IMG/VR virus record: IMGVR_UViG_3300020057_000120
Span: 1 to 29,507 of that record
DNA length: 29,507 nt
Origin: a virus
Direction: 5' to 3' (one strand)
In this document: positions 3,996 to 29,507 of the stretch, one piece after another
How the letters are laid out: each line of letters starts with the position of its first letter
Numbering within the stretch: the first letter of the stretch is position 1
Notes under the pieces: generated by a model
What the model was told of the DNA's origin: nothing
Databases searched by the model: none
Seen by the model: the letters and a program-made list of their open reading frames with translations, nothing else
Made by a program: the position numbers and the translations under genes

Positions 3996-4916
3996 TTAAG
4001 TTGCGCCCCCTTCTGCTAGTAGTTCGGTGAGTTCACCGGCTTTGCGATGTATTGCTGCTGCGTTCTTTCGTTGTTGTTCCACACTGTCGGGGTCGAGATT
4101 AAGCGTCCAGTTGAGGGCGATCATCGCGCCCTCAAGTGCCGTCTTCGCTTTCGCTTTGACAATCAGCGTCGGCAGGATGGCACGGTCGTTGAGTTCCTTG
4201 ATGACGTGTTTGATCCCCCGCTGGTGTGGCTGTGGGGAGAATGGAAAGTCGTTGAAGTGTTTGTCGAGCTTACCCTGCCGAACCTCTTCCATCCGACGCT
4301 TGATAATGGCGGCGGCTAGGGCGTTGAACTCGGGAGGCGATAGGGTCTTGGCGGGTTCGATCAGTTGTTCGCGTAGCGTAGGTGATTGCACCTTGGCGAG
4401 CATGTAAGCAGACATGAGCGGGATGTCCCCGCGATCCACCATCTTCTGAACCTTCGCACTGAGCGATAACAGGTCCAGTTGTTCACTCACCCACTGCGGG
4501 GCCTTATTCACGAAAGCCGCGATCTCGCGGACGGTCGTGCCAGGACGCATGGCTTGCAGTCGTTTCAGTTGCCTCGCGAACTCGGTCTTCGTTGTTTCCT
4601 TGCGGACAGCGTTCTCCCTAATCTGGCACGCAAGAACGTCTTCGTCGGTCAGGTCGTACTTTGTAACGGCCGCTATGGTGGGCAGCTTCAAGACTCTGTG
4701 GATGTCAGTGCGATGCAGCCCCGCGACGACTTCCCTTTTGCCAGGGGCACGATCGCCGGCCGGCCGCAAGCAGACGGGCGTAATTAGTCCGAACCGCTCG
4801 ATAGAGTCGAGCATCGTGACGTACTCGATGGACTCACGATCGATGTACCGAAGTAGGAACTTCGGATCGATGATCTCGTCCAGCGGCACATACCCGATTT
4901 CTTCTTTGCGATCCAC
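3996..4916 (-). CDS. ParB/Spo0J-family DNA-binding protein
   Basis: ParB-like protein, 306 residues from the GTG at 4916. The N-terminal ParB/sulfiredoxin-fold domain includes IGYVPLDEI, SIERFGLITPVCLRP and REVVAGLHRTDIHRVLKLP, where AGLHR matches the GxxR nucleotide-binding motif (GERR in canonical ParB). RENAVR corresponds to the ENLQR box. A helix-turn-helix follows (VREIAAFVNKAPQWVSEQLDLL), then a helical linker and C-terminal helix. The frame extends upstream to a TTG at 5000, but that extension is encoded inside the 39-bp element also found before the primase gene, and the GTG puts the protein start right at the conserved domain, with GAGG 10 bases upstream. Expected roles are genome partition, transcription control or replication initiation. 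The adjacent repeat region is the natural candidate target. Family call strong; start moderately sure. Confidence 0.9.
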   Translation of the reverse strand: MDRKEEIGYVPLDEIIDPKFLLRYIDRESIEYVTMLDSIERFGLITPVCLRPAGDRAPGKREVVAGLHRTDIHRVLKLPTIAAVTKYDLTDEDVLACQIRENAVRKETTKTEFARQLKRLQAMRPGTTVREIAAFVNKAPQWVSEQLDLLSLSAKVQKMVDRGDIPLMSAYMLAKVQSPTLREQLIEPAKTLSPPEFNALAAAIIKRRMEEVRQGKLDKHFNDFPFSPQPHQRGIKHVIKELNDRAILPTLIVKAKAKTALEGAMIALNWTLNLDPDSVEQQRKNAAAIHRKAGELTELLAEGGAT

Positions 4917-4941
4917 ACTGCGTCTGCCTCGTATGTTTCTT

Positions 4942-4980
4942 GACACTGATACTATTGTGCCGTTCTGTGTTAATTTTCCG
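4942..4980 (-). promoter_or_regulatory. 39-bp shared element, leftward copy (promoter/operator candidate)
   Basis: Reads on the minus strand as CGGAAAA, 12 variable bases, then GGCACAATAGTATCAGTGTC. The same layout with identical spacing occurs on the plus strand at 5223-5261, upstream of the primase. Each copy precedes one of the two divergent operons, which supports a promoter or common operator. It does not fit a simple sigma-70 -35/-10 pair, so a phage-specific activator or repressor is possible. It lies 26 bases before the GTG chosen for the ParB-like gene. Confidence 0.6.
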
Positions 4981-5001
4981 TTTGTGCCAAAAGTTAGCAA
5001 A

Positions 5002-5222: not shown

Positions 5223-5261
5223 CGGAAAAATTGGGCGGTTTGGCAGAATAGTATCGGTGTG
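5223..5261 (+). promoter_or_regulatory. 39-bp shared element, rightward copy (promoter/operator candidate)
   Basis: CGGAAAA, 12 variable bases, then GGCAGAATAGTATCGGTGTG. It matches the leftward copy at 4942-4980 at 17 of 20 bases in the right block, with identical spacing. It ends about 52 bases before the ATG chosen for the primase-helicase. Conservation of two separated blocks, with divergence between them, looks like protein recognition rather than coding constraint. Confidence 0.6.
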
Positions 5262-5313
5262 GAAAGATCGCCTTTTAGCACCGTCAAGCTGCCAAGATTC
5301 TCGCAGGCACCGC

Positions 5314-8025: not shown

Positions 8026-8263
8026 ACATATCCCACTGAACGGACCAGCAATACTACTCGTGACACCCATAACGCTGACCATGCTTCAAACCTGCGTGGG
8101 TGGCTTTATCAAATTCATCGAACTGCCCACGGGTGACTACATGGTCGTCAACGAGGCTAGCGAACAACTTGCCCCTTTCAACTCGTCTGCGTCATCGCTC
8201 GCCGGCAAGGCCGGCCCCATCTACGGTGACGCCGTGCTTTGTGAACCATCGGAGCTTGCATGA
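8018..8263 (+). CDS. Small DUF3846-like protein
   Basis: An 81-residue protein overlapping the primase stop by 8 bases and the kinase start by 4 (ATGA). The central part, LQTCVGGFIKFIELPTGDYM then VVNEASEQLAPFNSSASSL, followed by a closing PIYGDAVL block, matches the layout I recall for DUF3846: VGG, a hydrophobic strand, VNEE, a short N-containing loop, then G-D-V. DUF3846 is widespread in phages and plasmids as a single small domain of unknown function, often in replication operons. No signal peptide or membrane segment of full length. Domain assignment is by eye. Confidence 0.8.
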   Translation: MAKHIPLNGPAILLVTPITLTMLQTCVGGFIKFIELPTGDYMVVNEASEQLAPFNSSASSLAGKAGPIYGDAVLCEPSELA

Positions 8264-9060
8264 AAATCTTTGGCCTTGGACACTACTCCCGTACAGGAAA
8301 GGATACCTTTGGCAATTCCCTCGTGGCCTCCCTCGGCGAATACAAGCCATCGTTGCGTGCCGCGAAGAAGTCATTCGCTTGGAAGCTCAAGCAGATCGCA
8401 TTCGAGCTTTACGCTTGGGACGGTCTGCGGGAGCCCGAGTTCTACGAGACACTCGAAGGCGCGAAGTTCCGCGACATCCCCCTGCCGACCATCGGAAAAA
8501 CGCCCGTGCAAATCTGGGTGGACCTCGGCACGCCGGCTGTCCGGGAGAACGTCTACGAGAACACCTGGATCGATTACCTGTTGAAGTCGAAGAACGATCT
8601 CGACGTGCTTATCATCCCGGACGTTCGCTTCGCGAACGAGATTGCCGCGATCCGCGAGCTTGGCGGCACGCTGATTAAAGTCGTGCGGCCGGGCTATGGT
8701 CCCCGCAAGACGGTCGCCGATCGTGCGCTGGTTGGCTACAAGGGTTGGGACTATGTGATCGGTGAGTCGGGCGACATCAACGACCTGCGCCGCTGGGCGT
8801 CCCGCTTCGCTCACAGCATCATCACCAGTACGCCCCTCTGGCAAACCGAAGCTTCCAGAGAAGCCGCCTACCGGGTCGAAGTCGTTGAACCGTGGACGCC
8901 GCCGCTAGCCGACAAGGGGACGCTCAAGCTGGACCGGGCCACGGCCACGGTGCTTATGGGCATCCTTGACCGGGTGGAATCCGGCGACACGGTTGCCGAC
9001 ACGGTTGCCGACACGGTTTACGAGCAGCTTGAACAAGCCTTTCCGCAACAGGCCACATGA
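8260..9060 (+). CDS. Deoxynucleoside monophosphate kinase
   Basis: A 266-residue P-loop kinase expected to phosphorylate dNMPs to dNDPs for phage DNA synthesis. The N-terminus MKIFGLGHYSRTGKDT gives the GLGHxxRxGKDT loop typical of phage dNMP kinases (G7-T16). IIPDVRFANEIAAIRELGG (about 127-145) matches the family's D-x-R-F-xNE segment that lines the substrate site, and VVRPG follows as the next strand. The central region includes the Gln-Trp-type acceptor-site helices (TPVQIWVDLGTPAVREN). The C-terminal 40 residues are an extension with a DTVADTVADTV repeat (about 243-253), encoded by three 12-bp tandem units. It overlaps both neighbours by ATGA. Confident call. Confidence 0.92.
   Translation: MKIFGLGHYSRTGKDTFGNSLVASLGEYKPSLRAAKKSFAWKLKQIAFELYAWDGLREPEFYETLEGAKFRDIPLPTIGKTPVQIWVDLGTPAVRENVYENTWIDYLLKSKNDLDVLIIPDVRFANEIAAIRELGGTLIKVVRPGYGPRKTVADRALVGYKGWDYVIGESGDINDLRRWASRFAHSIITSTPLWQTEASREAAYRVEVVEPWTPPLADKGTLKLDRATATVLMGILDRVESGDTVADTVADTVYEQLEQAFPQQAT
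8985..9020. repeat. Three 12-bp tandem repeats inside the dNMP kinase gene
   Basis: Three head-to-tail units of CGACACGGTTGC; the last differs at its two final bases. They encode the DTVA repeat near the kinase C-terminus, outside the catalytic core, and look like recent slippage duplication. Confidence 0.9.
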
Positions 9061-9272
9061 ACAACGCAGCATCCTCATTATTCGCAGGTGCGGTGGTGGA
9101 CTTCATGCTTCACCTGATGAACCGCCCAGACCCGATGATCTGCGGGGCCAACTATCCTCGCGACAAGATCGTCGCGGAGTTCGAGATCTGGGCCAAGAGA
9201 CGCAAGCTCAACACGACGTACCTCAACATAGCTGACTGGACATCCCTCTGTGATGAGGGCCGACTGCAATGA
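9057..9272 (+). CDS. Small hypothetical protein
   Basis: A 71-residue protein locked between the kinase and exonuclease genes by ATGA overlaps at both ends, which is the main evidence that it is expressed. It begins with a small-residue/hydrophobic helix (MNNAASSLFAGAVVDFML), followed by NYPRDKIVAEFEIWAKRRKLN, which looks like a basic helical segment, and ends TSLCDEGRL. The layout (loop, helix, basic helix) could be a small winged-helix or helix-turn-helix nucleic-acid binder, but no family is recognised. Confidence 0.75.
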   Translation: MNNAASSLFAGAVVDFMLHLMNRPDPMICGANYPRDKIVAEFEIWAKRRKLNTTYLNIADWTSLCDEGRLQ

Positions 9273-9889
9273 CACGTACCTTCTCCGCCATGCCTCACCT
9301 GAACGGGAACCTGATGGTCGCCGTGGACGTGGAAACCACCGGTTCCCGGCCGGGGTTCCACGAGATCGTCCAGATTGCCGTGGTGCCTCTGAACTCGGAC
9401 ATCCGGCCCCTGGAAGGGGTCAGGCCCTTCTACACGAACGTCAGGCCGCTCTACCCGGAAAGGGCCGAGAAGAGAGCCTTGGGCATCCACGGGCTCAACC
9501 TGGACGATCTGGTGGCCCGTGCGGCGGACCCAGATCAGGTGGCCGAAATGCTGGTCAACTGGTTCGAGCGGCTGGACATGCCGATGGAGCGGAATCTAGT
9601 TCCGCTGGCCCACAACTGGGCATTCGAGAGCAGCTTCTTGAAAGCATGGCTCGGGGTGCCTCTGGCCGACAAGGTTTTCCATAGCCACGCACGCGACGGA
9701 ATGCTGACTGCGCTGCACATGAACGACAAGGCCGTCTTCAAAGGCGAGAAGGCCCCATTCAATCACGTTGGCCTCACGAAACTGTGTAAATACTTCGGCG
9801 TGGTCAACAGCAAAGAACACGATGCGTTTGCCGACTGTATTGCCGAAGCCGAAGTCTACCGCTGCCTTGTAATGATGGACATGATATGA
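9269..9889 (+). CDS. DnaQ-like 3'-5' exonuclease (DEDDh type)
   Basis: A 206-residue RNase H-fold exonuclease. Exo I is VAVDVETTG with D20 and E22; Exo II is LAHNWAFESSFL (113-124); Exo III is EHDAFADCIAEAEVY with H184 and D189. The histidine five residues before the aspartate marks the DEDDh subgroup, as in DNA polymerase III epsilon. The second-motif aspartate of the usual HNxxFD is glutamate here (E120), a conservative but notable change at a metal ligand. The likely role is proofreading or end trimming during phage replication. No polymerase is visible in this window, so it may work with a host or distant phage polymerase. Overlaps neighbours by ATGA on both sides. Confidence 0.9.
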   Translation: MTRTFSAMPHLNGNLMVAVDVETTGSRPGFHEIVQIAVVPLNSDIRPLEGVRPFYTNVRPLYPERAEKRALGIHGLNLDDLVARAADPDQVAEMLVNWFERLDMPMERNLVPLAHNWAFESSFLKAWLGVPLADKVFHSHARDGMLTALHMNDKAVFKGEKAPFNHVGLTKLCKYFGVVNSKEHDAFADCIAEAEVYRCLVMMDMI

Positions 9890-10374: not shown

Positions 10375-10944
10375 ATGGCAGTTAAGAAAGAGAACATCGA
10401 CCGCTTCTTTGACTATGACGTGATGCTGGATAGCCGCATCGTTATGATTGCCGACTCGTCTGACGAAGGCGTGGACAATCTCATGGCGAACCGCTTTATC
10501 AAAGCGATCACCATCCTCGAACAGTCGAACACCAACCCGATCCGCGTCATCCTCAAGAGCCTCGGTGGCTGCATCTATAACGGTGCTGCCATGTACGACG
10601 CCATCTCAAACTCCCCTTGCCACGTCTCGATGGAAGTGTATGGGGCCGCGATGTCGATGGGTGCCGAGTTACTACAGTCCGCCGACGAACGCATCATGCA
10701 GCCCAGCGCTTTGCTGATGCTGCATGATGGAACATTCGGGGCGGACGGTGCACCACGCACCTTTGAGAATTGGGCCGCAGTATCTAAGAAGCTGCGGCAG
10801 AGGATGTACGCGATCTTCGCTAAGCGAAGCGGCAAGACCGTCAAGTTTTGGGAGAAGATGTGTGCGAGCGATTTCATCCTGGATGCTGAGGGAGCCCTCA
10901 AGCACGGATTGATCGATCGCATTGCGCAACCGCCAGCAGGTTAG
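10375..10944 (+). CDS. ClpP-like serine protease (S14 family)
   Basis: A 189-residue ClpP-fold protease. The triad aligns as Ser94 in YGAAMSMGAELL, His117 in LMLHDG and Asp166 in ASDFILDAEGALKHGLID, the positions of the ClpP Ser-His-Asp. SLGGCIYNGAAMYDAI (62-77) is the oxyanion/NSPGG-equivalent block. AAAGG lies 8 bases before the ATG. In many phages such proteins are prohead proteases, but this one is at the end of the replication strand, next to tail genes and far from the capsid gene (25602-27017), and the capsid/scaffold pair is of a P22-like type that need not be cleaved. It may instead process a tail protein or act on host targets. Its stop overlaps that of the convergent tail-hub gene. 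Confidence 0.92.
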   Translation: MAVKKENIDRFFDYDVMLDSRIVMIADSSDEGVDNLMANRFIKAITILEQSNTNPIRVILKSLGGCIYNGAAMYDAISNSPCHVSMEVYGAAMSMGAELLQSADERIMQPSALLMLHDGTFGADGAPRTFENWAAVSKKLRQRMYAIFAKRSGKTVKFWEKMCASDFILDAEGALKHGLIDRIAQPPAG

Positions 10945-13739
10945 AGTGTGGACGACCCACCGCCCTCCCCATCTTCCGTCTCTTTCAAGAACGCCGAACC
11001 TGCGAGGAAACGCTTCTTGTCGGTATCCCACGCGAAGTGGAATATCGCATTGCGATCCGAAATGTCTGGATCGTAGAATCGCTGCGTCTTGATGTTGATA
11101 GCACCGCTCGCTGACTTGATCTCCGCAATTTGCGGAATGAATGGCGCTTGCTGATAGTTCAACTTGAGATTGGGATTCGGGTTCTTAGAACCATTCACCG
11201 TGCCGAACACAGTTGTCCCGAAGATGGACTGCGGGAAGAACAGGTCGTCTTTGAGGAAGTTGGAACCGCCGCCCGACCCATTCAGGTAGAGCACGTTCGG
11301 ACCGCCGACGAACACATTACCCGTACCTGTCAAGCTAATCAGCTTCCAGTACACGGTGTTGTTCGGCAGGTTGCCAGTCGTTCGCTGGATGCAGCAGTAG
11401 GACTCACCGTTGAGCAGCACGGCATCGTTCACAGCGTAGGCCGTGGCGTTGTCGTACTGGCCTCGGAACAGCAGGGACTTCCCGGCCACACCAATGACGC
11501 CAGTGTAGCCAATCGGCAACTGCTTGCTGGTTGGCTGAGCATCGTCGCCCACGAACTCCAATTCCTGGGCGGCTGGCCAGAACCACGGGTACTGTGTCAT
11601 CTCGCCCGCTCTTACGGGCACAAGACACTCGAAGTCAATTGTGTTGTCGGCCGAGTTGTAGTTGGCCTTCTCCACCATTGCTTTAATCGGACCCGACGCC
11701 ACATAGGCAGGGAGGTCCAGCAGCACCGTGTCGAACGTCTCAAGGTTCAGTTTCGTGAGATACGTTTTGAACCTGATTCGCTTCCATGTGTTTGCTTTGC
11801 GGATCATCCAGAACGTGGCACCATGAAGCACCACGTCGGGCTGGTTGAAAAGCGAGAAGTCGAAGTCGTCAGCCTTCGTACCGTACTTCGCGATGTTGTG
11901 ACGCAGGATCGTGTGCTCGGGAGTCTCGTCCGCCCACGACAGACGCCACTCAATAGTGAGCTTCGTCACGATGTCTTCGGTCGGCGTAAGCGCGACTTCG
12001 ACACTCTTGTTCGCGATGTCCGACACAGTGATCGTGTCGTCCGCGTCCGGCTCTTCGGCCAAATACTTGAGCTTGAACTCTCCGTTGTCGATCCACACAG
12101 CACAGCGGGCCGCGAAGGCAATCCGCTTAATCACGTCGATCGTGTTCTCGCGTTCAAGGAACGCAGTGTTCATGGGGAACTGTTCGAGCTTTGTTTCCAC
12201 GGCGTCGAACGTGGTCGTGTCATGCGTGAGGCTGGTCCATCGTTGGATGATGTATTCCAGAATGTCCACGGTATTCGGGCCGATTGTAGACTCGAACGTG
12301 ACGAACACGTCATCCGACCAGCCTTGATCGACCAGGGTAGACAGCGGCCGGTTCATCACGACTTCCACCGCCGTTACCGGCCCGTAGTTCGTGGTGCGAA
12401 CTGTGTACTGATCGGGCGGCACGTTAATGAGCCGCTTGTCACCGTCGAGCGTCTTCCACGCCTTCACGGCTAGGACGGTGCCCGGAGTAATGCTTACGAT
12501 GTAAGTGATAGGCTCGTCGGAGTCCATCACCACACGCGAACCAGCATCGGCCCAAAAGTGCTGGGCGATCTGATCGGGCTGCGTGCTGTTCTGCGAATCA
12601 GTGCAAACGAAGAAGCCGGTGCTCTCGACGGTTGTTCCGTCCGGCATGTCGATCGATTCATGGAAATTGTTGTTGCCTGTGGATGGTTGCTGGTTGCAGG
12701 CGTCAGACGCTATGGCCCCGACGATACCCTCTACTTTGTCATCATTGTCCACATGCTTACGACTGCTGATGTGGAAGCCATCGGCCCTCGCAATTCCAGT
12801 GAACAAGCCACCGTTGATGTTCAGGCGGATCGTGGTGTTCTGCGGAAAGTCTTCTAGGCCAAGGATGGGCAGTGGGTTGGACCCAAGCCCAGTGTCGTTG
12901 GCGTTGTCGAGCACGTTCTGCCGCTGTTGCAAGGCACATCCTTGCTGCAACTGATAGCTGAACACGGCGGTCGACGATTGTGCACGCATGTCATTGGCTT
13001 GTGCTTGCATCTCGTCGGCGCGCTTGCTGTCTTTCGCCGCCCGCCACGCAACACCAGCAATATCCAGAAGCGAGATTCGGATCGAGGCCAAGCCTAACTG
13101 CTGACCCAGGCCGCAATTCGATTGCCCAAGATCAGCGCCCTTCTGCTCAGCCGCGCCAGACACAATACCAACGCCCGCCAACGTCGTTCCCGACACGGCG
13201 GGCTTTACTTGTAGGGCCGGTACGTCAAGCGCCTTGCCAAAGATCACCGGCCAGGGTTTGCCGATCAGCGCTTTGGGAATGAAGTCGAAGTCACCTTCCT
13301 CGGCCGAGAAGCCGAACTCGTTGTCTTCTAACTGAGCTTCGACTTGGACCGAGACGGTGCGGTCGCCTTCCGACCAGATGATGGGGCTCTTGAGCTTTCC
13401 TTGGAACAAGAGGAACTTGTCGGAGAGGTCCAACCCGTCGAAGAACTGGTATACAGAAACGGGGCGTTGCTGGACATCATTTGTGTCGAGAATGGCTTTG
13501 ATAGTTCCGTCTGTGTCATCGAGCGTCACCGCGATCTGTTGGGAGTTGCTGGAATCAATGTTGATGATATTGTCGAACTCACCAACCTCAAGGATGCGAC
13601 CTTTGATGCTGCCGATGGTACGGTCAGCATACGAGATAGGATGACCGTTGCCAGCCCAGTCGATCTCGATAATGAAAATAGGCTCGACGCCTTTCTTCTG
13701 CGCGAGCTTCGTCAAAGCGTCTACCGAAATGCTTCTCAT
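10941..13739 (-). CDS. Large tail hub / baseplate protein with CBM5/12-like module
   Basis: A 932-residue structural protein, last gene of the late block. The N-terminus (MRSISVDALTKLAQKKGVEPIFIIEIDWAG) and residues to about 180, with repeated beta strands and IAVTLDDTDGTIKAILDT, resemble tail hub proteins of siphoviruses (gp27/Tal-like domains). Residues about 210-270 form an Ala/Gln-rich helical stretch. The middle (about 480-700) is mixed alpha/beta with YIIQRWTSL, as in tail-tip hubs. Residues about 758-800 (FRGQYDNATAYAVNDAVLLN through YCCIQRTTGNLPNNTVYW) match a CBM5/12-type carbohydrate-binding module, which suggests binding to surface glycans. It starts within the stop of the upstream gene (4-base overlap). 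Hub role inferred from position after the distal-tail-like genes, size and N-terminal style. Confidence 0.85.
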   Translation of the reverse strand: MRSISVDALTKLAQKKGVEPIFIIEIDWAGNGHPISYADRTIGSIKGRILEVGEFDNIINIDSSNSQQIAVTLDDTDGTIKAILDTNDVQQRPVSVYQFFDGLDLSDKFLLFQGKLKSPIIWSEGDRTVSVQVEAQLEDNEFGFSAEEGDFDFIPKALIGKPWPVIFGKALDVPALQVKPAVSGTTLAGVGIVSGAAEQKGADLGQSNCGLGQQLGLASIRISLLDIAGVAWRAAKDSKRADEMQAQANDMRAQSSTAVFSYQLQQGCALQQRQNVLDNANDTGLGSNPLPILGLEDFPQNTTIRLNINGGLFTGIARADGFHISSRKHVDNDDKVEGIVGAIASDACNQQPSTGNNNFHESIDMPDGTTVESTGFFVCTDSQNSTQPDQIAQHFWADAGSRVVMDSDEPITYIVSITPGTVLAVKAWKTLDGDKRLINVPPDQYTVRTTNYGPVTAVEVVMNRPLSTLVDQGWSDDVFVTFESTIGPNTVDILEYIIQRWTSLTHDTTTFDAVETKLEQFPMNTAFLERENTIDVIKRIAFAARCAVWIDNGEFKLKYLAEEPDADDTITVSDIANKSVEVALTPTEDIVTKLTIEWRLSWADETPEHTILRHNIAKYGTKADDFDFSLFNQPDVVLHGATFWMIRKANTWKRIRFKTYLTKLNLETFDTVLLDLPAYVASGPIKAMVEKANYNSADNTIDFECLVPVRAGEMTQYPWFWPAAQELEFVGDDAQPTSKQLPIGYTGVIGVAGKSLLFRGQYDNATAYAVNDAVLLNGESYCCIQRTTGNLPNNTVYWKLISLTGTGNVFVGGPNVLYLNGSGGGSNFLKDDLFFPQSIFGTTVFGTVNGSKNPNPNLKLNYQQAPFIPQIAEIKSASGAINIKTQRFYDPDISDRNAIFHFAWDTDKKRFLAGSAFLKETEDGEGGGSSTL

Positions 13740-17804: not shown

Positions 17805-20783
17805 TTACGACTTGAAGCGGATATTGCCACGCCGAATTTCTTGGCGTAGCGCTCGACCAATTTCGCGGCCGTTGATCTTGCTGGGATCGCTGGACTTGAT
17901 GGTCACGTTGACATCACCGACGTTGGTGGTGCTGCCACCATTCTGCCGAAACACGGGAGCGTGTCCGGCATTGATGGCTTGAAGTTGCGAGAAGAACTTG
18001 TTGCTCGAACGCGGGTTGATGACTGTCTCACCACGCGCTAGCATGGCGGGGACTGTATCGATACCACGGCCACCTGCGGCGAAGAACGAAGGCCGTCCGC
18101 CAAAAGCCTGATTCGCCGTGGGTCCGCCACCGAGAATTGGCACCTTGATGGCTGACGATGCCGAGGCTGCCGCCTGTAACGCTTGAGCCATGACGGCAGC
18201 GGCCTGGGCGTTGGCCTGCATCGGAGTCTGCAAGGTCTCGATCGTGGCATGGAGCGTCGTGGCCGGGCCGGTGGCATTGCCCAAGGCTCGGGCCAGGGGC
18301 GATGCGTCGATCTTCCCTAACGCACCCGAGAGATCGGTCTCTAACTTGCTGACCGCACCGTCCGTGCGGATTTGAAGATCGAGTACCTTGTCTTTCGAGA
18401 CACCTTGCTCCAACAAAGCACCCAAGGCACCTTGTCGTGCGGCTGCTTGAGCTTTCAACGCTTCCGGCGAAAGCTGCTGACCGTTCTTGTCGAAGATGCT
18501 GCTGTTTGCAGCGAGGGTCTTTGTCGCAGCCTGGATGATCGCGAGCGATTGCTGTTGCTTGGCTCGCTGTTGTTCCAGTTGCGGCAGCCGTGAGGCCGAG
18601 ATCGAAGCCAGTTGCTTCTCAGAGTTGACCTGTAGGTCCGTCAACTCTTTCAGTTGCCGGGCCGCGAATAGCGCACCGCGACGATCACCGGCAGATTCAG
18701 CTAGTTGCTTAGCCTCTTCGCCCGTGGCCTGGGCCGTCTCAAAGGCGGCTCTCGCCCGCTCGACGCCCGACACGCTACCGGTCCGGGCAGCAGTCGCCAG
18801 ATCGGTAGCTGCCTTGCTCGCTAAGTCCTGGGCACGCTTAATCAACGCGAACGACTTTTGTGAGTCGTCCAGGTTTGATTGGCCCAGTCGCGTATCGAAG
18901 TCACGCCGATCTTGTCGGGCAGTAAGTCCGGCAACCTTAGCGCCGCTCGTCTTGATAAGGTTCTTCGCGAGATTGATCTGTTGCGTGAGTTGGGTGATCT
19001 TACCCTTCTCGACGTTGATGATCGCGTTCGCAGAGGTTCGTGCCTCGGCCAGCAATTCTTTGTTGCGAGCTTTGAACTGATCGATCTCAGCAAAACGAAT
19101 CTTGTTGAGTTCTTCTTGCGCCTTACCTTCGGCAGCAGCCTGGGCCTTCTGCACGGTCTCTCGCTTCTTGCCGATGATGTCAAGTTGACGCTGACGTATT
19201 TCGAGTTCGGAGATGATCTTGCCACCGGACTCACCGATGGTAAGGTCTTTGCCGAACAGCGCTTGCAGGTTTTCCCAGGCGATGCCGAATGCTGTTACGC
19301 GAGGTTGGGCACGCAGAATGCTGCCCGTTGTATCCAGGACAGCCACCGTAAAGTCACGGAGAACCGCAGCGGTATCCAATCCTGTGTTCCCGATCGTGAC
19401 GAAGCCGTCGCCGATCGGGATCATCGTGACCTTGAGTTGATTCCACTTCTTCGTCAGTTGCTCGGCGTCGTTGGCCATAACCTGCTGAGCGCGCTCAGAG
19501 TTTAGGCGGCTCGTTACTCCGTCGATCTGACGCAAGGCGTCGGCGTACTTCTCGGCATTCGTACCACCTAACGACAGCACGCCGAGTAGAGCCCGCTGGT
19601 TGTTGAAAAGCTCGGCCGTGCCGGCTGTGGTGCCATCGGTTTGTTCCAACAGGAACTTCAACGCACCGCCCAACCCTCGGGTCTTGACAAGTTGTTCAGC
19701 GCTGGCGATACCATTCGCACGAAACACCCGAGTCAATTCATCGGAGGGCTTTACTAACCCGGTCAGAGTTCCGCGAATCTGGGTGAACGCTTGGGCGTAA
19801 GGAACACCAGCATTCGTCAGAGCAGCCACCGACGATAACAATTCAGCCTGGGACACACCGAGCGTATTACCCAGTGTGGCGACCGTACCGAAATTGCTCG
19901 CAAGCTCTTCGCCGCGAATCGTACCTAACCGGATGGTTTCGTTGAACTGGCTGGCCAGTCGGTCAGCTTGATCTACACCTTGACCATAGGCATTCAAGCC
20001 ACCAGCGAGCCCTCTTACGCTCGCATCCATTGTCGTCAGCGCGCCCTTCGAGAACTCAGCCGCCGTCGTCATAAATTGGAGGTCTTGTGCCGTCTTGAGA
20101 ATCTGAGCGCTTAAAGCTTCATACGTGCCCTTCGCCACATCGGGCAGAGGAATGTTGAAGTCAGACGAAATGCGCTGTAGGTTGCTCCCAAGTTCGCTAC
20201 GGTTGCCGAAAATCTTGTCGGTGTCGATCGACTGGATTTCTGCTAGCTGCTTCTGGAACGCAATCGACGCCTGGATCGATTCCTCGATACCTTGGCGGAT
20301 AGCCCGGAAGCCAGAGACGATGGTTTGGGTGAACACGATCCGAGACAACAGCTTGAAGCTGGTAGTCAACCGACCGTTGGCACCTGTGACTTGATCGGCA
20401 GCATTGGTCGTGTGCTTGCTGATGCGGACAATGGCATCGCCCACGCGCACGGAAGCCGTGCGGGCGGCATCGCCAGTCACCAAGAAGCTCTTCGCTACCT
20501 GGGCCGCAGCCGTGGCGGCAGCACCAGCGTCGGCCGAGATGTTGCGGCCGAGACCGCCAGCGGACGCGACCTTGGCCAGAGCCGCCGCAGCTTCATTGCT
20601 GCGTTGGGCCAACTGGATCATCGCGGAGACCGTCTTGCCGGCCTCTTTGTTGAACGTGCCGAAGTTGTTCGCGGACCCACGCAGGCCGTTCTCAAGGGCT
20701 GCGAGTGCGTCGTCAAGCTGCTTCAATGCAGTAAGTGCTTGACTTGCATCGAACCCGAGTGTTTGTTTTATTTCCTCAGCCAT
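17805..20783 (-). CDS. Tail tape measure protein
   Basis: At 992 residues this is the longest gene of the window. It has an N-terminal coiled-coil (about 10-75), a hydrophobic patch LLSRIVFTQTIVSGFRAI (about 148-165) and a TP901-type core: QKQLAEIQSIDTDKIF, then YEALSAQI, GALTTMDASVRGLAGGLNAY and RGEELASNFGTVATLGNTLG. A long Ala/Gln/Lys helical section (about 540-830) follows. The C-terminus carries GIDTVPAMLARGETVINPRS (about 905-925), a motif common at the end of tape measure proteins. Tape measures fix tail length at roughly 0.15 nm per residue (known for siphophages), so about 150 nm is expected here if the protein is not processed. Confidence 0.95.
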   Translation of the reverse strand: MAEEIKQTLGFDASQALTALKQLDDALAALENGLRGSANNFGTFNKEAGKTVSAMIQLAQRSNEAAAALAKVASAGGLGRNISADAGAAATAAAQVAKSFLVTGDAARTASVRVGDAIVRISKHTTNAADQVTGANGRLTTSFKLLSRIVFTQTIVSGFRAIRQGIEESIQASIAFQKQLAEIQSIDTDKIFGNRSELGSNLQRISSDFNIPLPDVAKGTYEALSAQILKTAQDLQFMTTAAEFSKGALTTMDASVRGLAGGLNAYGQGVDQADRLASQFNETIRLGTIRGEELASNFGTVATLGNTLGVSQAELLSSVAALTNAGVPYAQAFTQIRGTLTGLVKPSDELTRVFRANGIASAEQLVKTRGLGGALKFLLEQTDGTTAGTAELFNNQRALLGVLSLGGTNAEKYADALRQIDGVTSRLNSERAQQVMANDAEQLTKKWNQLKVTMIPIGDGFVTIGNTGLDTAAVLRDFTVAVLDTTGSILRAQPRVTAFGIAWENLQALFGKDLTIGESGGKIISELEIRQRQLDIIGKKRETVQKAQAAAEGKAQEELNKIRFAEIDQFKARNKELLAEARTSANAIINVEKGKITQLTQQINLAKNLIKTSGAKVAGLTARQDRRDFDTRLGQSNLDDSQKSFALIKRAQDLASKAATDLATAARTGSVSGVERARAAFETAQATGEEAKQLAESAGDRRGALFAARQLKELTDLQVNSEKQLASISASRLPQLEQQRAKQQQSLAIIQAATKTLAANSSIFDKNGQQLSPEALKAQAAARQGALGALLEQGVSKDKVLDLQIRTDGAVSKLETDLSGALGKIDASPLARALGNATGPATTLHATIETLQTPMQANAQAAAVMAQALQAAASASSAIKVPILGGGPTANQAFGGRPSFFAAGGRGIDTVPAMLARGETVINPRSSNKFFSQLQAINAGHAPVFRQNGGSTTNVGDVNVTIKSSDPSKINGREIGRALRQEIRRGNIRFKS

Positions 20784-21392: not shown

Positions 21393-22114
21393 TTAGCGGT
21401 GCCTGCCTTTACTCTTCTTTGACGGAGCGGCGGGAGGGCCGGCCGAGCCAGAAGGCATCCGTGCCCCAGCTAGTTGAGCTTCCCGCTCGCTCTCGTCGTA
21501 ACTACATGTCTGATCGAAGGCGATCAGCTTTGCTTGGATGAAGGCACCGCAATCGTCCCATGACTCTTTCACGCCGGGAGGCTTTACTCCGAAGCGTTCA
21601 CAGGCTCGCCAGATGGCGTACTCGCCTGTTCGGTACTTGGGAAAGAGATGGGATTTTGCATCTGCGCCCGACCAGCTAGAAAATCCTCGCGCGCCCGTTG
21701 CAACTTGGCTTCGTTGAGGCCGTTGGCGTCAACGACGAGTTGCACGATGCGGTCGATTTCCGCGTCGGTGAACTGGGCGTTCGTCAGGTCATTGTTCCAG
21801 TTGTCCCATGTCTTGGGGTTGTCCAGGTTCACGGCGTCCCACTCGATGTTGCTGGGCTTCAACGAGAAGACGATCGTGTAGGCCGTCCGCTGTGCGGCGT
21901 GACTCGCAACGACGGATTGGTAGCCCTTGTCTTCGGGGTCAGGCACCCAACCTTGATTGGGCACCAGCTTGCCGGGCGGTGCCGGGAACGGGCACAGCTT
22001 GAAGAAGTCTTCCAGGTCAGCGGGCTCTGCCCAAAACGCAATCGGTCCATCTTCGCGCGGCAGCACCAGCAATTCTTTAGGCGGTGGTGTGACCGTTTTA
22101 CCGTTGATACGCAT
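21393..22114 (-). CDS. Tail assembly chaperone, made in short and -1 frameshifted long forms
   Basis: The upstream frame (22114-21584) codes for 176 residues with an acidic N-terminus and a helical middle (FTDAEIDRIVQLVVDANGLN). At 21638-21644 the zero-frame codons TTC CCA sit in a canonical slippery heptamer T TTC CCA. A -1 slip there joins residue 159 to 81 more residues that end at 21393 (starting KYRTGEYAIWRACERFGVKP). The extension frame is open just as far as needed, carries a conserved-looking WRACERFG/CGAFIQAK region and ends in a Lys/Arg-rich tail. The G and GT chaperones of lambda are made this way and help wrap the tape measure during tube assembly; position directly before the minor tail and tape measure genes fits. 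The ATG follows AGGAATAAACAA. Confidence 0.85.
21638..21644 (-). promoter_or_regulatory. -1 ribosomal frameshift site (TTTCCCA)
   Basis: XXXYYYZ heptamer T TTC CCA in the correct zero-frame phase, 52 bases before the zero-frame stop. After the slip the tRNAs would re-pair with TTT and CCC. I did not identify a clear downstream pseudoknot by eye. Confidence 0.8.
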
Positions 22115-22278: not shown

Positions 22279-23301
22279 TTACGCGCGCTCGATGTCGGCC
22301 TCACTCACGTTGCACTTGCCTTTGGTGGCAATGGTTGCCGCGCTGAGATCGAATTCGAGAGAATCGCGTCGGAACATCGGGAACGTCGTCCGCTCCGTTT
22401 CGGCAGTGCCGCACGGAGGGTTGTGTTCGATCTCGATGTCAACGCAGTAGGGTTCACACTGGTCGTCCGAGGCGCTGAACCAACCACTCGCGCCACCGAT
22501 GCCTTTAATCGCATCGACAGCAGTGATTTCCTCAGCGGTGCCCGTCCGCACAAACTCATAGACGAATTCGAGGCTCACTTCGAGTGGGGCCTCGTCACCT
22601 TCGCGAACGGCGTCCAGGTTGCCCCGGTCGAGTTCGTACTCGTAGTTCTTCGTCTCGGTATAGGTCAGATTGCCGTTGCCGACTTTCACTTCCACCTGTT
22701 GAGGTAGGAGGGTGATGTTGTCGTTATTGGCAGGCAGATCGCCAGCGTCTAAAGCCGGGGTGAAGGTCAGTTCCCACGACACCGCGCCAGCGCGGAGCGT
22801 GGTCACACCCACCGTATCGCCACCGCCTGCCAAATCCACGTCGTCCGCAGTAAGCGTCGGCGTGCTGAGGTTGGCATAAGCACCCTTGATCTCGATGTGA
22901 TACGTGCCGGCAACCGGCAGTGTCACAAGAACGTCACCTGCGACCACGTTCGAGAGAGCCACAAGGGCTGCCTGGACGTTGACCGCTGTGTCGTTGTAAG
23001 GGATGCTGGCCGTGGTCTGGCCGTTGAAGGTGATAGTGAAGTTGCCGCTCGTGGCATCGACCACGACTGCGAACTTCTTGTTGGCCTTCTCGGCAGTCAC
23101 GACGAACACGGTGTCAGCCACCGTGGCAATCGTGAAGCGAGCGCCAACGGGGACTCGTGTGGTTGCGTTCGGCAAGCTTGCCAACGTGTCGATTTCCAAG
23201 GTGGTGTCGCCACCACCGGGAGAGCTTTCATCCACTTTTGCTGTGCCACCAAAACCGTCTTTGATACGGATCGTGGCATCGCGTAGTTCAATGCGTGCCA
23301 T
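22279..23301 (-). CDS. Tail-tube protein paralogue B with inserted domain
   Basis: A 340-residue paralogue of the neighbouring tail-tube protein (23339-24064). The N-terminus (MARIELRDATIRIKDG) and the C-terminal 150 residues (LPQQVEVKVGNGNLTYTETK onward) are nearly identical to it. Between them lies an insert of about 100 residues (about 70-175) with strand pattern GNFTITFNGQTTASIPYN, VQAALVALSNV, GDVLVTLPVAGTYHIEIKGA, and LTADDVDLAGG. This is a beta-sandwich-like module I recall from planctomycete and phage surface proteins. Four cysteines are shared with the paralogue (CEPYC, PPCG, KGKC). It is probably a decorated tube subunit or a second tube protein, since insertion of a surface domain into a tube gene is known for other phages. 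Confidence 0.9.
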   Translation of the reverse strand: MARIELRDATIRIKDGFGGTAKVDESSPGGGDTTLEIDTLASLPNATTRVPVGARFTIATVADTVFVVTAEKANKKFAVVVDATSGNFTITFNGQTTASIPYNDTAVNVQAALVALSNVVAGDVLVTLPVAGTYHIEIKGAYANLSTPTLTADDVDLAGGGDTVGVTTLRAGAVSWELTFTPALDAGDLPANNDNITLLPQQVEVKVGNGNLTYTETKNYEYELDRGNLDAVREGDEAPLEVSLEFVYEFVRTGTAEEITAVDAIKGIGGASGWFSASDDQCEPYCVDIEIEHNPPCGTAETERTTFPMFRRDSLEFDLSAATIATKGKCNVSEADIERA

Positions 23302-23338
23302 TGTTCTTTACTCGCAATTTGTCAGAGAGGTTGGTGGG

Positions 23339-24064
23339 TTACGACCGCGAGATGTCGGCCTCACTCACGTTGCACTTGCCCTTTGTGGCAATCGTCGCAG
23401 CGTTGAGGTCGAATTCGAGCGAGTCACGGCGGAACATCGGAAACGTGGTCGTTTCCGTTTGAGCAGTACCGCACGGCGGGTTGTGCTCGATTTCGAGATC
23501 GACGCAGTACGGCTCGCACAAGTCGGACGAAGAACTCACCCACTCGGACGCGCCGCCGCTGCCTTTGATGGCATCAACAGGTGTGATCTCTTCGCTCGTC
23601 CCAGTGCGGACAAACTCGTAGACGAATTCGAGACTGACTTCGAGCGGGGCTTCATCGCCCTCACGAACGGAGTCCAGGTTGCCCCGGTCGAGTTCGTACT
23701 CGTAGTTCTTCGTCTCGGTATACGTCAGGTTGCCGTTGCCGACTTTCACTTCAATCTGCTGGGGCAGGAAGGTGATGACGGCATCGTCGGCCACGCCGGC
23801 CGCAGTGACGGGCGTGAAGGTGATCGCGGTCGTCGGACTGGGTCCAGTACGGCCAGTGACCGTGTGGACAGGGAGGCCAGTTTCACCCGCGATGGTGAAT
23901 CGAGCCCCGATCGGAATTTGCGTGGTCAGTGTCGTGTTCAACGACACGGTATCAACACCCAAAGAAGTGTCGCCGGCCATGATGCTCATGTCATTGACAG
24001 CGGCGGTGCCCGCCAGTCCATCTTTGACACGGATCGTGGCATCGCGAAGTTCAATACGTGCCAT
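23339..24064 (-). CDS. Major tail-tube protein A
   Basis: A 241-residue tube-like protein. The core has the long beta pattern expected for a tail tube: EVKVGNGNLTYTETKNYEYE, EGDEAPLEVSLEFVYEFVR, and a closing FPMFRRDSLEFDLNAATIA. Cysteine pairs CEPYC, PPCG and KGKC near the C-terminus could form disulfides or bind metal. The frame reaches a GTG at 24133, but the intervening part is a Phe run from a GAA microsatellite; ATG 24064 with AGGG 9 bases upstream matches the paralogue's start exactly. It is preceded by the tail terminator gene and followed by its duplicate. Family call by context and fold pattern. Confidence 0.85.
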   Translation of the reverse strand: MARIELRDATIRVKDGLAGTAAVNDMSIMAGDTSLGVDTVSLNTTLTTQIPIGARFTIAGETGLPVHTVTGRTGPSPTTAITFTPVTAAGVADDAVITFLPQQIEVKVGNGNLTYTETKNYEYELDRGNLDSVREGDEAPLEVSLEFVYEFVRTGTSEEITPVDAIKGSGGASEWVSSSSDLCEPYCVDLEIEHNPPCGTAQTETTTFPMFRRDSLEFDLNAATIATKGKCNVSEADISRS

Positions 24065-24159: not shown

Positions 24160-24654
24160 TTACTGAGAAATTTCCATCTTGTATCGAGCATCGACGGCCG
24201 ACTGTTTCAGCCGGTCCGTCTTGTCGATCTGCCCGAAGTGGAACACGCGGACAGCATCGTTCTTGCCAGCACGAGGCGATAGGCACCCAATTTGCACGTC
24301 GGGGTCGTCAATTTCCTCGTCCTGACCGAACTTGAAGATCGGAATCAAGTCATCCATTGCCTCGTGAAAGAGGCCAAGGAACTTGTGCAACGAGTAGCCG
24401 TTCTTCTTGCCGTCCAAACGGCTTGAGAACAGTACGTTCACATCGACTGAGACTTCGTAGAACCCATGACTCAACTCTTGAGTGAAGGGTCCATTGATAC
24501 GAATCTCTGCACGGTCGGTCGCTGTGTTGAACGCCTCGTCGCGATCATCAAGACCTTCCACGATGATAGGAAGGCTTGCATCCGTCGCGACCTCTTTGAG
24601 ATAGTCGGCGACCGATGCGAAAATCCAGCGGGCCAAATGGGGACTAACAGGCAT
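24160..24654 (-). CDS. Tail terminator / tail completion protein
   Basis: A 164-residue protein directly before the tail-tube genes, the usual place of the tail terminator. An N-terminal helix (HLARWIFASVADYLKEVA) leads to beta strands with AEIRINGPFTQELSHGFYEVSVDVNVLFSSR (about 48-78), then a helix (LHKFLGLFHEAMDDLI), as in the alpha/beta fold of lambda gpU-like tail terminators. The C-terminal part adds a beta strand pair (FHFGQIDKTDRLKQSAVDAR). Good AAGGGGA ribosome-binding site 6 bases upstream. Assigned by position and fold pattern. Confidence 0.75.
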   Translation of the reverse strand: MPVSPHLARWIFASVADYLKEVATDASLPIIVEGLDDRDEAFNTATDRAEIRINGPFTQELSHGFYEVSVDVNVLFSSRLDGKKNGYSLHKFLGLFHEAMDDLIPIFKFGQDEEIDDPDVQIGCLSPRAGKNDAVRVFHFGQIDKTDRLKQSAVDARYKMEISQ

Positions 24655-25601: not shown

Positions 25602-27017
25602 TTAGCCCAAGAACGCGACGGCCTGATTGGCGTCGATCACTTCGACACCCGCGAGGATGTCCAAGTTGACGCGAGTACCACCCTTCACGGAGTCGTACTG
25701 CATCACGACACGCATACCGAGACCATCCCACGAGGCGTTGGCAGCGGCCACGCTGTTGCTGACCGGAGGCAGAGCCAACGGGCGGCTGATGAGCGCGATC
25801 GCGCTTCGGCGGAAGGCCAAGTTCATCGAACCTGCCGGGCCGGGGAACGCCTTGTCGTCATCCGACAACAGGACTTCCAGCGGGCGATCCAGCAAGACCT
25901 TTGTGGAGGTCGTACTGACGTTCTCGACTTCGATCACGGTGTAGACGTGACGGGTGCTCGTGCCGAAGGCAACCAACTGGCCGACCTGCGGACGCAGGCT
26001 GGCGGTGTGGCCGTCCAGGGTCACAAACTTGCTGTAGCCCACGGCGTAGGCACCGTTGACATCGCAAGCCTTGTACACGGTGATGACCGCGCTGGACAAC
26101 GTGGCGAACTTGTTCGCCTCGTGCAGCGTGACCGCATCGGTGTCGCCGCCGTTCAGCGTCTTGGCGGTGACGTAGGTGGGCTGGTCGTTACCAGCCACGG
26201 TGGCGTACTCGCCGATAATCACGTTGTAGCCCGTGATCGTGGTGGCCTGCGAACCCGAGCCACCCGCCGCGAGGGCGCTGGTCACGGTTCCCGTCGCCAC
26301 GGAGGCGGCGGACAGGTCGGCGTAGTTGGTGTTGTTGCCACGCAGGATGTCGAAGCCCAACAGATGGCCGAGGCGGGCAGTCGCGAGGGCGCTGCCGCCG
26401 TCACCACGCTCGTTGGCCTTCGTGAAGAGATCGGTCTTCAAGATGGCGGTTTCGCTGTAAGGCGAGACCACGATGTTGCGGCCGTCGTCCGCAGCCTTCT
26501 GGATGTTCATCAGTTGACGAACATCGAGAATGTAGTCGCGGGCGTTCGACGCGCTGAGGTTGTTCAGACGGCCGACGCGAGTGGTCGGGGTCTTCAAGAC
26601 CTCGTGGACGCGACCCAGGATGGCACGCTCGACCATGCGGGCGATGTTCTTCATCGACACCGGCATGTAGACGGGAATGAGTTCCTGGAACGAAATCGTC
26701 TGCTCACCGTCCTTGATGATGAACGAATCGTAGAACCACTGGTCCAGCGCGATGCGGACCGGGGTGGACGAGACATCCTTGGCCTCGTAGTCGTCGGCAT
26801 CCGTGCGCCGGCGACCCGAACGATCAACCGGTCGGCGGGTGTTGACCACATCGCCGAAGTTCTTGATCTCGTTCGAGAACTCTTTGTGGACGAGGTTGCC
26901 CATCACGAGTTCCTCGCTCAGCAGAGCGAGACCTTCACGCGCCCACAACTCGGGGACGTAGGCGTCGGTGTCGTTGGCAAAGCAGATCAGCGTTGCCGAA
27001 ATGTACATGGGATTCAT
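25602..27017 (-). CDS. Major capsid (coat) protein, P22-like
   Basis: A 471-residue coat protein forming the head shell. YISATLICFANDTDAYVPEL, then LLSEELVMGNLVHKEFSNEI and FGDVVNTRRP (about 5-60) match the N-terminus of P22-type coat proteins, followed by RIALDQWFYDSFIIKDGE. The middle (about 220-390) is a Gly/Ala/Thr-rich beta region that may be an inserted accessory domain, and the C-terminus is again HK97-fold-like (MNLAFRRSAIALISRPLALP, GLGMRVVMQYD, DILAGVEVID). The frame is open back to 27155, but ATG 27017 has AGGAAG 7 bases upstream and starts the conserved part. Scaffold gene upstream and terminator downstream fit. Confident. Confidence 0.92.
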   Translation of the reverse strand: MNPMYISATLICFANDTDAYVPELWAREGLALLSEELVMGNLVHKEFSNEIKNFGDVVNTRRPVDRSGRRRTDADDYEAKDVSSTPVRIALDQWFYDSFIIKDGEQTISFQELIPVYMPVSMKNIARMVERAILGRVHEVLKTPTTRVGRLNNLSASNARDYILDVRQLMNIQKAADDGRNIVVSPYSETAILKTDLFTKANERGDGGSALATARLGHLLGFDILRGNNTNYADLSAASVATGTVTSALAAGGSGSQATTITGYNVIIGEYATVAGNDQPTYVTAKTLNGGDTDAVTLHEANKFATLSSAVITVYKACDVNGAYAVGYSKFVTLDGHTASLRPQVGQLVAFGTSTRHVYTVIEVENVSTTSTKVLLDRPLEVLLSDDDKAFPGPAGSMNLAFRRSAIALISRPLALPPVSNSVAAANASWDGLGMRVVMQYDSVKGGTRVNLDILAGVEVIDANQAVAFLG

Positions 27018-27208
27018 GGGTTTCTTCCTAATGAGGGATTGAGGGCGGCGAATTTGCCATACAAAAATCTGAGGTTCACGTCGCAACACGCGACATGAAT
27101 GTGTGGCTAGAAAATGCCACCAGAGAGGCGACCCCGCAGAGAGGCGGGTTCTCATAAGAAGCCCGGTTTACGGCCGGTAACGGTTACCTTACGGCAACTC
27201 GGAAGAGT

Positions 27209-28747: not shown

Positions 28748-29507
28748 TTAGTCCGCTAGTAATGCGTATCGACCTATCTTGATCTGCCGGGCGGCATTGG
28801 TGAGTGTCGTGGCCGATATATCCCAATACATGAGAGTTGACGCATTGGGAATCGTTGTGGTGTGGGTCACAACAAGCACGTCGTTGATGTAAAAAATAAC
28901 ATCGGCGTTGGTGACTTCAATCCGCATCACATAGACGGTATCGACCGCGACGGCCACGGTAGTCGTTGTGACCTGTGGCGTACCGCTGGCATTGTCACTG
29001 ACACACCGCCAGAAAGCAGTACCGTCTGCGGCGGTGTCATAGCGAAAACCAGCATAGTGGACAGATGGAGTGGCGCTACTTTGCGGATTTCCGCTTGCCA
29101 GACTGACCCAAAAACGAACCGACGTGATCGTTGCGGGCGTCTTTATGCGGGTTACTGACAGTGTATTCCACTGTCGCCAGACGCCAGCGGAGGCGTTGTA
29201 AGTTACTCTGCAATGGTTTCCGCTGGTTGCACCAGATTGTAGGAGTGCAAAAGCACCTTCTGCTTCATTGGTGACACTACTTAGCCCGGTGAAAGTTGGA
29301 GTCGCTGCAAACCCGGATACTTGTCCGTTACCATCCGATCCAATAATATACTGGCGGAGATATTTTCTGGTCGCAATACCGGAGTCCGACCCCGTGGCTC
29401 CCGTGGCTCCCGTGGCTCCCGTGGCTCCCGTGGCACCCGTGGCTCCCGTGGCTCCCGTGGCTCCCGTGGCACCCGTGGCACCCGTGGCACCCGTGGCACC
29501 CATGTCG
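28748..29507 (-). CDS. Collagen-like phage fibre protein, N-terminus beyond the window
   Basis: The frame continues past the right edge; the ATG at 29503 is most likely an internal Met within a G-D-M collagen triplet, so the true start is outside. Twelve Gly-Ala-Thr triplets (29393-29500) form a collagen-like stalk. They are followed by a segment [15 protein letters not shown] and a globular C-terminal domain of about 200 residues with Trp/Phe-rich beta strands ([43 protein letters not shown]), resembling a lectin-like or LamG-like fibre tip. Likely trimeric host-binding fibre. Unusually it precedes the head genes rather than following the tail genes. Confidence 0.85.
29393..29500. repeat. 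Twelve 9-bp collagen repeats
   Basis: Twelve in-phase 9-bp units encoding Gly-Ala-Thr; only the third base of the glycine codon varies (GGT, GGA, GGG). Nearly perfect DNA repetition implies recent expansion. Confidence 0.95.

Follow-up and report, generated by a model that had tools for sequence, protein, structure and literature searches.

Tandem plain and decorated tail-tube genes in an uncultured phage and the mixed tube they may form

The phage tail is usually pictured as a polymer of one tube protein, with frameshifting of the SPP1 type as the known way to mix decorated subunits into it. An uncultured phage, represented by the IMG/VR virus record IMGVR_UViG_3300020057_000120 (29,507 bases, the whole of which is called the window here), raises the question of whether two separate genes can reach the same outcome. 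A sequence-only reading of the window had proposed that two adjacent genes are duplicated tail-tube genes, one with an inserted domain, and had offered two functions for the pair, a tube of two mixed subunit types or a copy specialised for an end.

Gene pair, neighbours and predicted folds

The two genes, called A and B, and their main neighbours are as follows.

23339..24064, minus strand: gene A, plain tail-tube protein (P0001), 241 aa; model pLDDT 83.5; tube/Hcp fold Z 7.3-8.5
22279..23301, minus strand: gene B, decorated tail-tube protein (P0002), 340 aa; model pLDDT 80.2
25602..27155, minus strand: P22-type major capsid protein (PF11651, E 2.1e-23; phrog_283, E 4.6e-47)
24160..24654, minus strand: conserved gene at the neck/tail-completion position upstream of A, placed by synteny; no Pfam or PHROG match
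21584..22114, minus strand: conserved gene between tube and tape measure, at the tail assembly chaperone position by synteny; no credible family match
17805..20783, minus strand: tape measure protein, 992 aa (PF10145, E 3.1e-16; phrog_23013, E 3.3e-29)

A and B are each a complete open reading frame with its own start and stop, lie in the same orientation with A first, and are separated by 37 nt. The frame of A holds an earlier GTG, and the homologous start is the ATG at 24064. BLASTP aligns the two proteins at E = 6e-100, with 61% identity over 59 N-terminal residues and 83% over 163 C-terminal residues. The common start block claimed for the two proteins is real (15 of 16 residues identical over 1-16) and is followed by a stretch in which 21 of 43 residues match (17-59). 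The last 150 residues were described as nearly identical: 126 of 143 positions agree between A 99-241 and B 198-340, which is 88% at the protein level, and 80 of 429 core nucleotides are mismatched. Four cysteines occur in each copy as stated (183, 187, 198 and 231 in A; 282, 286, 297 and 330 in B), and the roughly 100 extra residues of the second protein amount to 99. Likeness of this kind marks A and B as tandem paralogues.

Along the minus strand, a head-tail adaptor-like gene (phrog_477, E 1.1e-14) is followed by an unassigned gene, the P22-type coat gene, three small genes at the neck position, A, B, two genes at the chaperone position and the tape measure gene. The related loci examined preserve this gene order, in which A and B are flanked by the neck genes on one side and lead towards the tape measure gene on the other. 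Neither these loci nor the window showed a sheath gene next to the tube genes, so the phage is likely a siphovirus. Elsewhere in the window there are two tail-fibre-like genes (10941-13739 and 28748-29503); one contains a CBM_5_12-like stretch that stays below threshold, and the other is collagen-like and runs into the edge of the record. The other half of the window encodes a ParB-like protein (3996-5000), a DNA primase (5257-8025), a deoxynucleoside monophosphate kinase (8260-9060) and an RNase T-type exonuclease (9269-9889).

Structures were predicted for both proteins, from 21 sequences in the case of A and with a pTM of 0.66 for B, and were compared with known folds. Among the 50 PDB entries listed by VIA-align for the model of A, 34 cover the entire split fold, composed of the N-terminal strands and residues 103-241 (Z 7.3-8.5), and all 34 are tail-tube, neck, baseplate, cap or Hcp-type proteins; the remaining 16 cover residues 16-104. 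This inner region is predicted to be an OB-like domain, matching the Mystique tail tube (9n71, Z 10.2, 73 residues, 1.9 Å), the T5 Dit protein pb9 (Z 8.1) and the I-domain of the P22 coat protein (Z 7.9). Most tube-fold Z values lie near 8, a level at which a merely common arrangement is possible. The best Foldseek match, the T1 tail tube, is modest (E 1.8e-4, TM 0.32), and a sequence search of the structure library with A found no credible PDB relative. The identification is thus drawn from the fold list and the gene order combined, which together support A and B as siphovirus tail-tube proteins, in line with the original proposal.

The same parts are found in the model of B, with one addition. 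Residues 73-173 match the Bxb1 tail tip cage protein gp23 (9d93_Ma) at Z 15.5 over 101 residues (1.7 Å, 36% identity), followed by the Bxb1 capsid C-terminus (Z 13.6), Patience gp22 (Z 12.5) and the Bxb1 tail tube (Z 11.8). A profile search with the insert agrees with the fold match (E 1.8e-28), and the beta-module suspected from the sequence is accordingly a real inserted domain of surface type. The model of B thus shows two levels of insertion, the OB-like domain in the tube fold and the Bxb1-type domain in the OB-like domain. The predicted parts, all on the minus strand, are:

24017..24064: A residues 1-16, strands at the N-terminal end of the tube fold, kept alike within genomes (paralogues 0.89 vs orthologues 0.71)
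23759..24016: A residues 17-102, OB / P22-coat-I-domain-like insert in the tube fold, from the model; paralogue identity 0.37 (17-65)
23342..23758: A residues 103-241, core that forms the tube; homogenised with that of B
23101..23253: B residues 17-67, N-terminal segment of the OB-like domain, which is interrupted in B, from alignment and model
22783..23085: B residues 73-173, surface/decoration domain of Bxb1 type inside the OB-like domain, from fold and profile matches
22699..22782: B residues 174-201, C-terminal segment of the OB-like domain, from alignment and model
22282..22698: B residues 202-340, core that forms the tube; homogenised with that of A

The OB-like module of the plain tube protein (23759-24016) resembles the I-domain region of P22-type coat proteins also in profile comparisons: phrog_283, the family to which the window phage's own coat protein (25602-27155) belongs, is hit at E <=0.1 by 9 of 21 plain copies.

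Relatives, copy number and repeated decoration

Scans of viral contigs with A, with B and with an alignment of plain copies returned 34, 11 and 80 loci, the 80 being the best of 199, so that the census leans to close relatives. A genome scan gave four loci, two of them with a tube core, in a Planctomycetota and an Anaerolinea MAG, and tblastn with A found no match among 50,697 phage records. L117 and L118, two prophage-like loci in bacterial genomes, have a single copy each. The 102 contig stretches comprise 38 with two tube cores, 57 with one and 7 with none. After loci above 95% core identity had been collapsed, and with at least 1.5 kb required on both sides for a single-copy call, 73 distinct loci remained (33 two-copy, 26 one-copy, 14 unresolved). 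A pairing that recurs in 33 of 73 distinct loci is not chance.

The pairwise tests used 31 of the 38 two-copy loci. Three were dropped as repeats (L027, L067 and L028, of L026, L063 and L029), three because the second core is cut by the contig end (L074, L080, L096), and L064, which is counted among the 33, was left out because its copies lie on opposite strands. The near-identical phages L007 and L047 both stand in the core tree, and L047 was withheld from the nearest-copy test at four-fold sites. Domain identities were compared in 18 loci with the window-type insert only (L054 left out), and the tree of the N-terminal block (N-block) holds 25 loci, the six with an insert near residue 30 having been omitted. 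The plain gene comes first in 23 of the 31 pairs and the decorated gene in 6; in the other two (L011, L021) neither copy has an inserted domain.

Some relatives depart from these arrangements. In L043 (3007-4089) the sole tube gene, between the usual neighbours, is a decorated one, which suggests that decorated subunits may suffice to form a tube. L075 (6520-8148) and L076 (6998-8626) each have a single 542-aa tube gene with a long C-terminal extension, without a PHROG match in L075. L033-L037 lack the tube core, and their relatedness (40% identity) is confined to residues 1-102 of A, the N-terminal module being attached to a different partner. Conversely, the distant matches in L122-L126, from genomes of the phylum of L117, cover nothing but parts of residues 100-243; the open frames concerned have 171-192 aa and are apparently tube cores without an OB-like domain.

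The position of the extra module was obtained by aligning mates within genomes, with gap placement approximate in several pairs (L041 and L108 most). It lies at about residue 59-80 in 19 loci, near residue 24-35 in six (L022-L025, L029, L113) and at 93-98 in two (L050, L078). L071 has an unrelated insert near residue 24-35, and L030 a repeated OB-like stretch in place of the module. The presence of the module at three different sites indicates that decorated copies arose repeatedly. In the N-block tree, the decorated copy of L078 has a plain-type block and groups with the plain copy of L063, a genome that keeps an old decorated type; this placement points to replacement of decorated partners over time.

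The same decoration domain occurs in many single-copy phages as a stand-alone protein (mostly ~200 aa) whose gene immediately precedes that of the head-tail adaptor (L085:1336-1938, L086:1916-2518, L084:1497-2096, and in L097-L099, L101, L102, L105, L109 and L116). By sequence, the domain seems to move between tube proteins and proteins of the head region. Three and four tandem copies of it are encoded at L060:1419-2627 and L089:70-1368, in phages that also carry a decorated tube gene.

Domain-limited concerted evolution of the paralogues

Trees of the two halves of the protein disagree about which copies belong together. On the core tree (31 loci), placing the plain/decorated label takes 26 changes against a shuffled mean of 20.3, and genome mates are exclusive sisters in 21 of 31 loci, with support of 100/99 for the pair of the window; cores are still grouped by type in L069, L072 and L095. 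In the N-block tree (25 loci, few columns), the label needs 6 changes against a shuffled mean of 16.3, and none of 500 shuffles was as low. Mean identities in the 18 window-type loci, given in the order within genome, plain with plain, decorated with decorated and across types, follow the same division:

residues 1-16: 0.89, 0.71, 0.71, 0.71
residues 17-65: 0.37, 0.57, 0.57, 0.37
residues 78-102: 0.46, 0.57, 0.59, 0.44
residues 103-241: 0.88, 0.63, 0.64, 0.63

The genome mate is closer than every same-type copy in 30 of 36 cases for the core and in 1 of 36 for residues 17-65. The switch is sharp and falls at residue 101-103, where the model re-enters the tube fold. The alignments therefore indicate that the tube parts stay alike within a genome while the OB-like parts group by type, with the boundary of this pattern at the boundary of the fold.

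Within the core, positions differ in 9.9% of pairs on average. Residues 108-142, including a predicted ring-to-ring hairpin (~119-138, assigned from strand order), differ in 1-4% of pairs, and residues 173-182 (window 23519-23548), the one core stretch without homogenisation, in 28-37%; here almost all plain copies have E174 and V176, two positions that vary freely among decorated copies. These numbers bear on the second function offered by the sequence-only reading, in which B would be an end-specific ring protein, forming a few decorated rings at the neck or tail tip of a tube otherwise made of A. Contractile tails commonly have special rings encoded by tandem tube-like genes, which counts for such a role, as does the difference between types at 173-182. 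However, a phage should not be able to do without an end ring, and 26 of the 59 resolved loci lack a second copy; the predicted hairpin is among the parts most alike; gene order is flipped in 6 of 31 loci; and L043 has the decorated gene only. An end-specific B is thus unlikely, and its obligatory form is specifically disfavoured by the single-gene loci and the lack of divergence at the hairpin.

How the cores are kept alike can be partly read from their nucleotides. L007 and L047 have identical decorated genes, and their plain genes differ at 16 nt, all within nt 387-504; at 16 of 16 the plain gene of L047 carries the base of the decorated copy. Judged from these sequences, the tract is gene conversion, barring a misassembly of a contig at that point. 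In 11 of 31 pairs, among them that of the window (51 nt against 22.4), mates share an identical run of improbable length (P<0.01). At 70-93% nucleotide identity, such runs occur in 11 of 30 pairs within genomes and in 6 of 160 between genomes (Fisher P 1.7e-6, the between-genome pairs not being independent). Where residues are identical, mates use the same codon more often than chance would give in 20 of 31 pairs, with no such excess in the other 11 (P<0.01).

Could selection for matched interfaces alone have kept the cores alike, with no recombination? L022 speaks for this, with cores that are 99% identical in amino acids and differ at 79 of 140 codons (84.2 expected), no more alike than shuffled codons, and so does the likeness of residues 1-16 and 103-241 on either side of an unlike OB domain. 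Yet the L047 tract, the long identical runs and the codon excess in 20 of 31 pairs call for recombination, or else duplication anew, in many pairs, and selection as the sole cause appears quite improbable. Recombination alone is not the whole explanation either, given the pairs without codon excess and the four-fold sites, at which the genome mate is the closest copy in 26 of 60 cases, against 50 of 60 at the protein level. Recombination and selection for matched surfaces both seem to act. A comparison of amino-acid with four-fold divergence hinted that paralogues are more constrained than orthologues; it was given no weight, its high-identity orthologue set being dominated by one clade.

The likeness of the cores could also reflect youth, that is, a recent or neutral duplication without function. 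Within-genome cores are 76-99% identical (same-strand pairs), as such an origin would have it, but 30 of 62 four-fold sites differ in the core of the window, OB-like domains of one type are common to distant genomes, the pair recurs across the distinct loci, and the codons of L022 are as unlike as shuffled ones. Recent duplication was rejected on the four-fold sites and the type-specific OB domains, and a functionless pair is scarcely credible.

A further possibility is that the two genes serve alternative rather than mixed tubes, through a condition-dependent choice or with the second copy as a spare swapped in by recombination. Natural loci with the plain gene only, with the decorated gene only (L043) and with both are compatible with this. 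In L010 and L048, moreover, a single gene is plain-like up to nt 512 and decorated-like after nt 303, and may be a recombination product of the pair, with natural deletion of the decorated copy. The 209-nt identical stretch involved is longer than the usual assembly k-mers, so these two genes may instead come from assembly collapse. With the genes of the pair 37 nt apart in the same orientation, with no switch element noticed in passing, and with homogenised cores that are better explained by shared rings, alternative tubes are doubtful, and decidedly improbable.

A proposed mixed tube and its known counterparts

Co-assembly of A and B into one mixed tube of plain and decorated subunits is the reading preferred here, at a probability of roughly 0.65, and it is the first of the two functions originally offered. 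Tube parts matched within a genome, with outer parts left free, are expected if both products share rings. The tube-forming fold common to A and B would allow either to fit any position in hexameric rings, A as the plain subunit and B with its Bxb1-type domain projecting from the tube, where that domain would most likely make weak contacts with the host surface. Recombination and selection would keep the tube surfaces of the two proteins interchangeable, and would thereby maintain a supply of plain and extended subunits. We infer that both proteins are in the virion and mix, with A outnumbering B, and that the added domain binds cell-surface glycans. Single-copy loci (26 of the 59 resolved) indicate that B is dispensable. 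Ribosome sites are stronger for the plain gene in 19 of 31 pairs, which is not a significant difference (P 0.075), a count in which several of the 62 starts are miscalled (both in L021 and L041, the plain one in L023 and L071). In a bolder form, plain and decorated subunits may alternate in a fixed manner within each ring.

The closest functional parallel is SPP1, in which gp17.1 and a frameshifted, FN3-extended gp17.1* are described as mixed 3:1 and a plain-only virion as viable (PMC8718954, PMC7666168). The comparison with SPP1, already drawn from the sequence, is apt for the outcome: plain and extended subunits have the same tube core (126 of 143 residues identical here; mean 0.88 in 18 loci), and plain-only phages exist among the relatives. 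It fails for the mechanism and for the position of the domain. SPP1 uses one gene and a frameshift, and its FN3 domain is a C-terminal extension; here there are two complete open reading frames, and the Bxb1-type insert is internal and nested (B 73-173). Unlike those of SPP1, the cores of two genes can drift and be re-matched.

Two related tube genes per genome, present here in 33 of 73 distinct loci, are also described for Gordonia cluster DJ, where two major tail protein genes, one with extra residues, are given for all 56 members (PMC12859696). Unlike A and B, the DJ pair has 43% identity, one intervening gene and C-terminal extra residues, and the authors' account, as far as the accessible text goes, proposes horizontal transfer and reports no within-genome homogenisation (PMC12859696). 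No Gordonia organism appears among the listed tblastn matches of B, and the DJ pair was compared by description only.

The insert of B is clearly similar in fold and sequence to the surface domains of mycobacteriophage Bxb1 (gp23 tail tip cage, capsid and gp19 tail tube), although those of the Bxb1 tail tube and capsid are C-terminal and that of B is internal. Ig-like domains of the Douge tail tube and capsid are reported to bind mycobacterial glycans (PMC13033339), and by analogy with them a surface or glycan-binding role may be inferred for the domain of B. The tubes of T5 (pb6) and lambda (gpV) likewise place an outward Ig-like domain on a tube fold (PMC8718954). In those phages, however, every subunit is decorated, and in T5 two tube domains are fused in one chain, whereas here one of two gene products carries the domain.

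In the open-licence papers searched, no account of homogenised tail-tube paralogues or of mixed tubes from two genes was found. A tube of plain plus extended subunits is known, and the form seen here, in which two genes evolve in concert over part of their domains and decoration has arisen repeatedly, appears to be undescribed in that literature. Whether the window typifies a widespread uncultured family with a two-gene copolymer tube, in which cores are re-matched, outer halves diverge, the boundary is set by the fold and decoration has been invented repeatedly, is evenly balanced in our judgement. Two genes appear to give the plain and decorated outcome of SPP1, and the natural variation provides a read-out of what must match for co-assembly (residues 1-16 and 103-241) and what is free (the OB-like domain and its insert). 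The locus thus offers a map for laboratory tests of mixed tubes and a case of domain-limited concerted evolution in a virus, and such a system would explain how tail decoration can diversify without loss of tube assembly.
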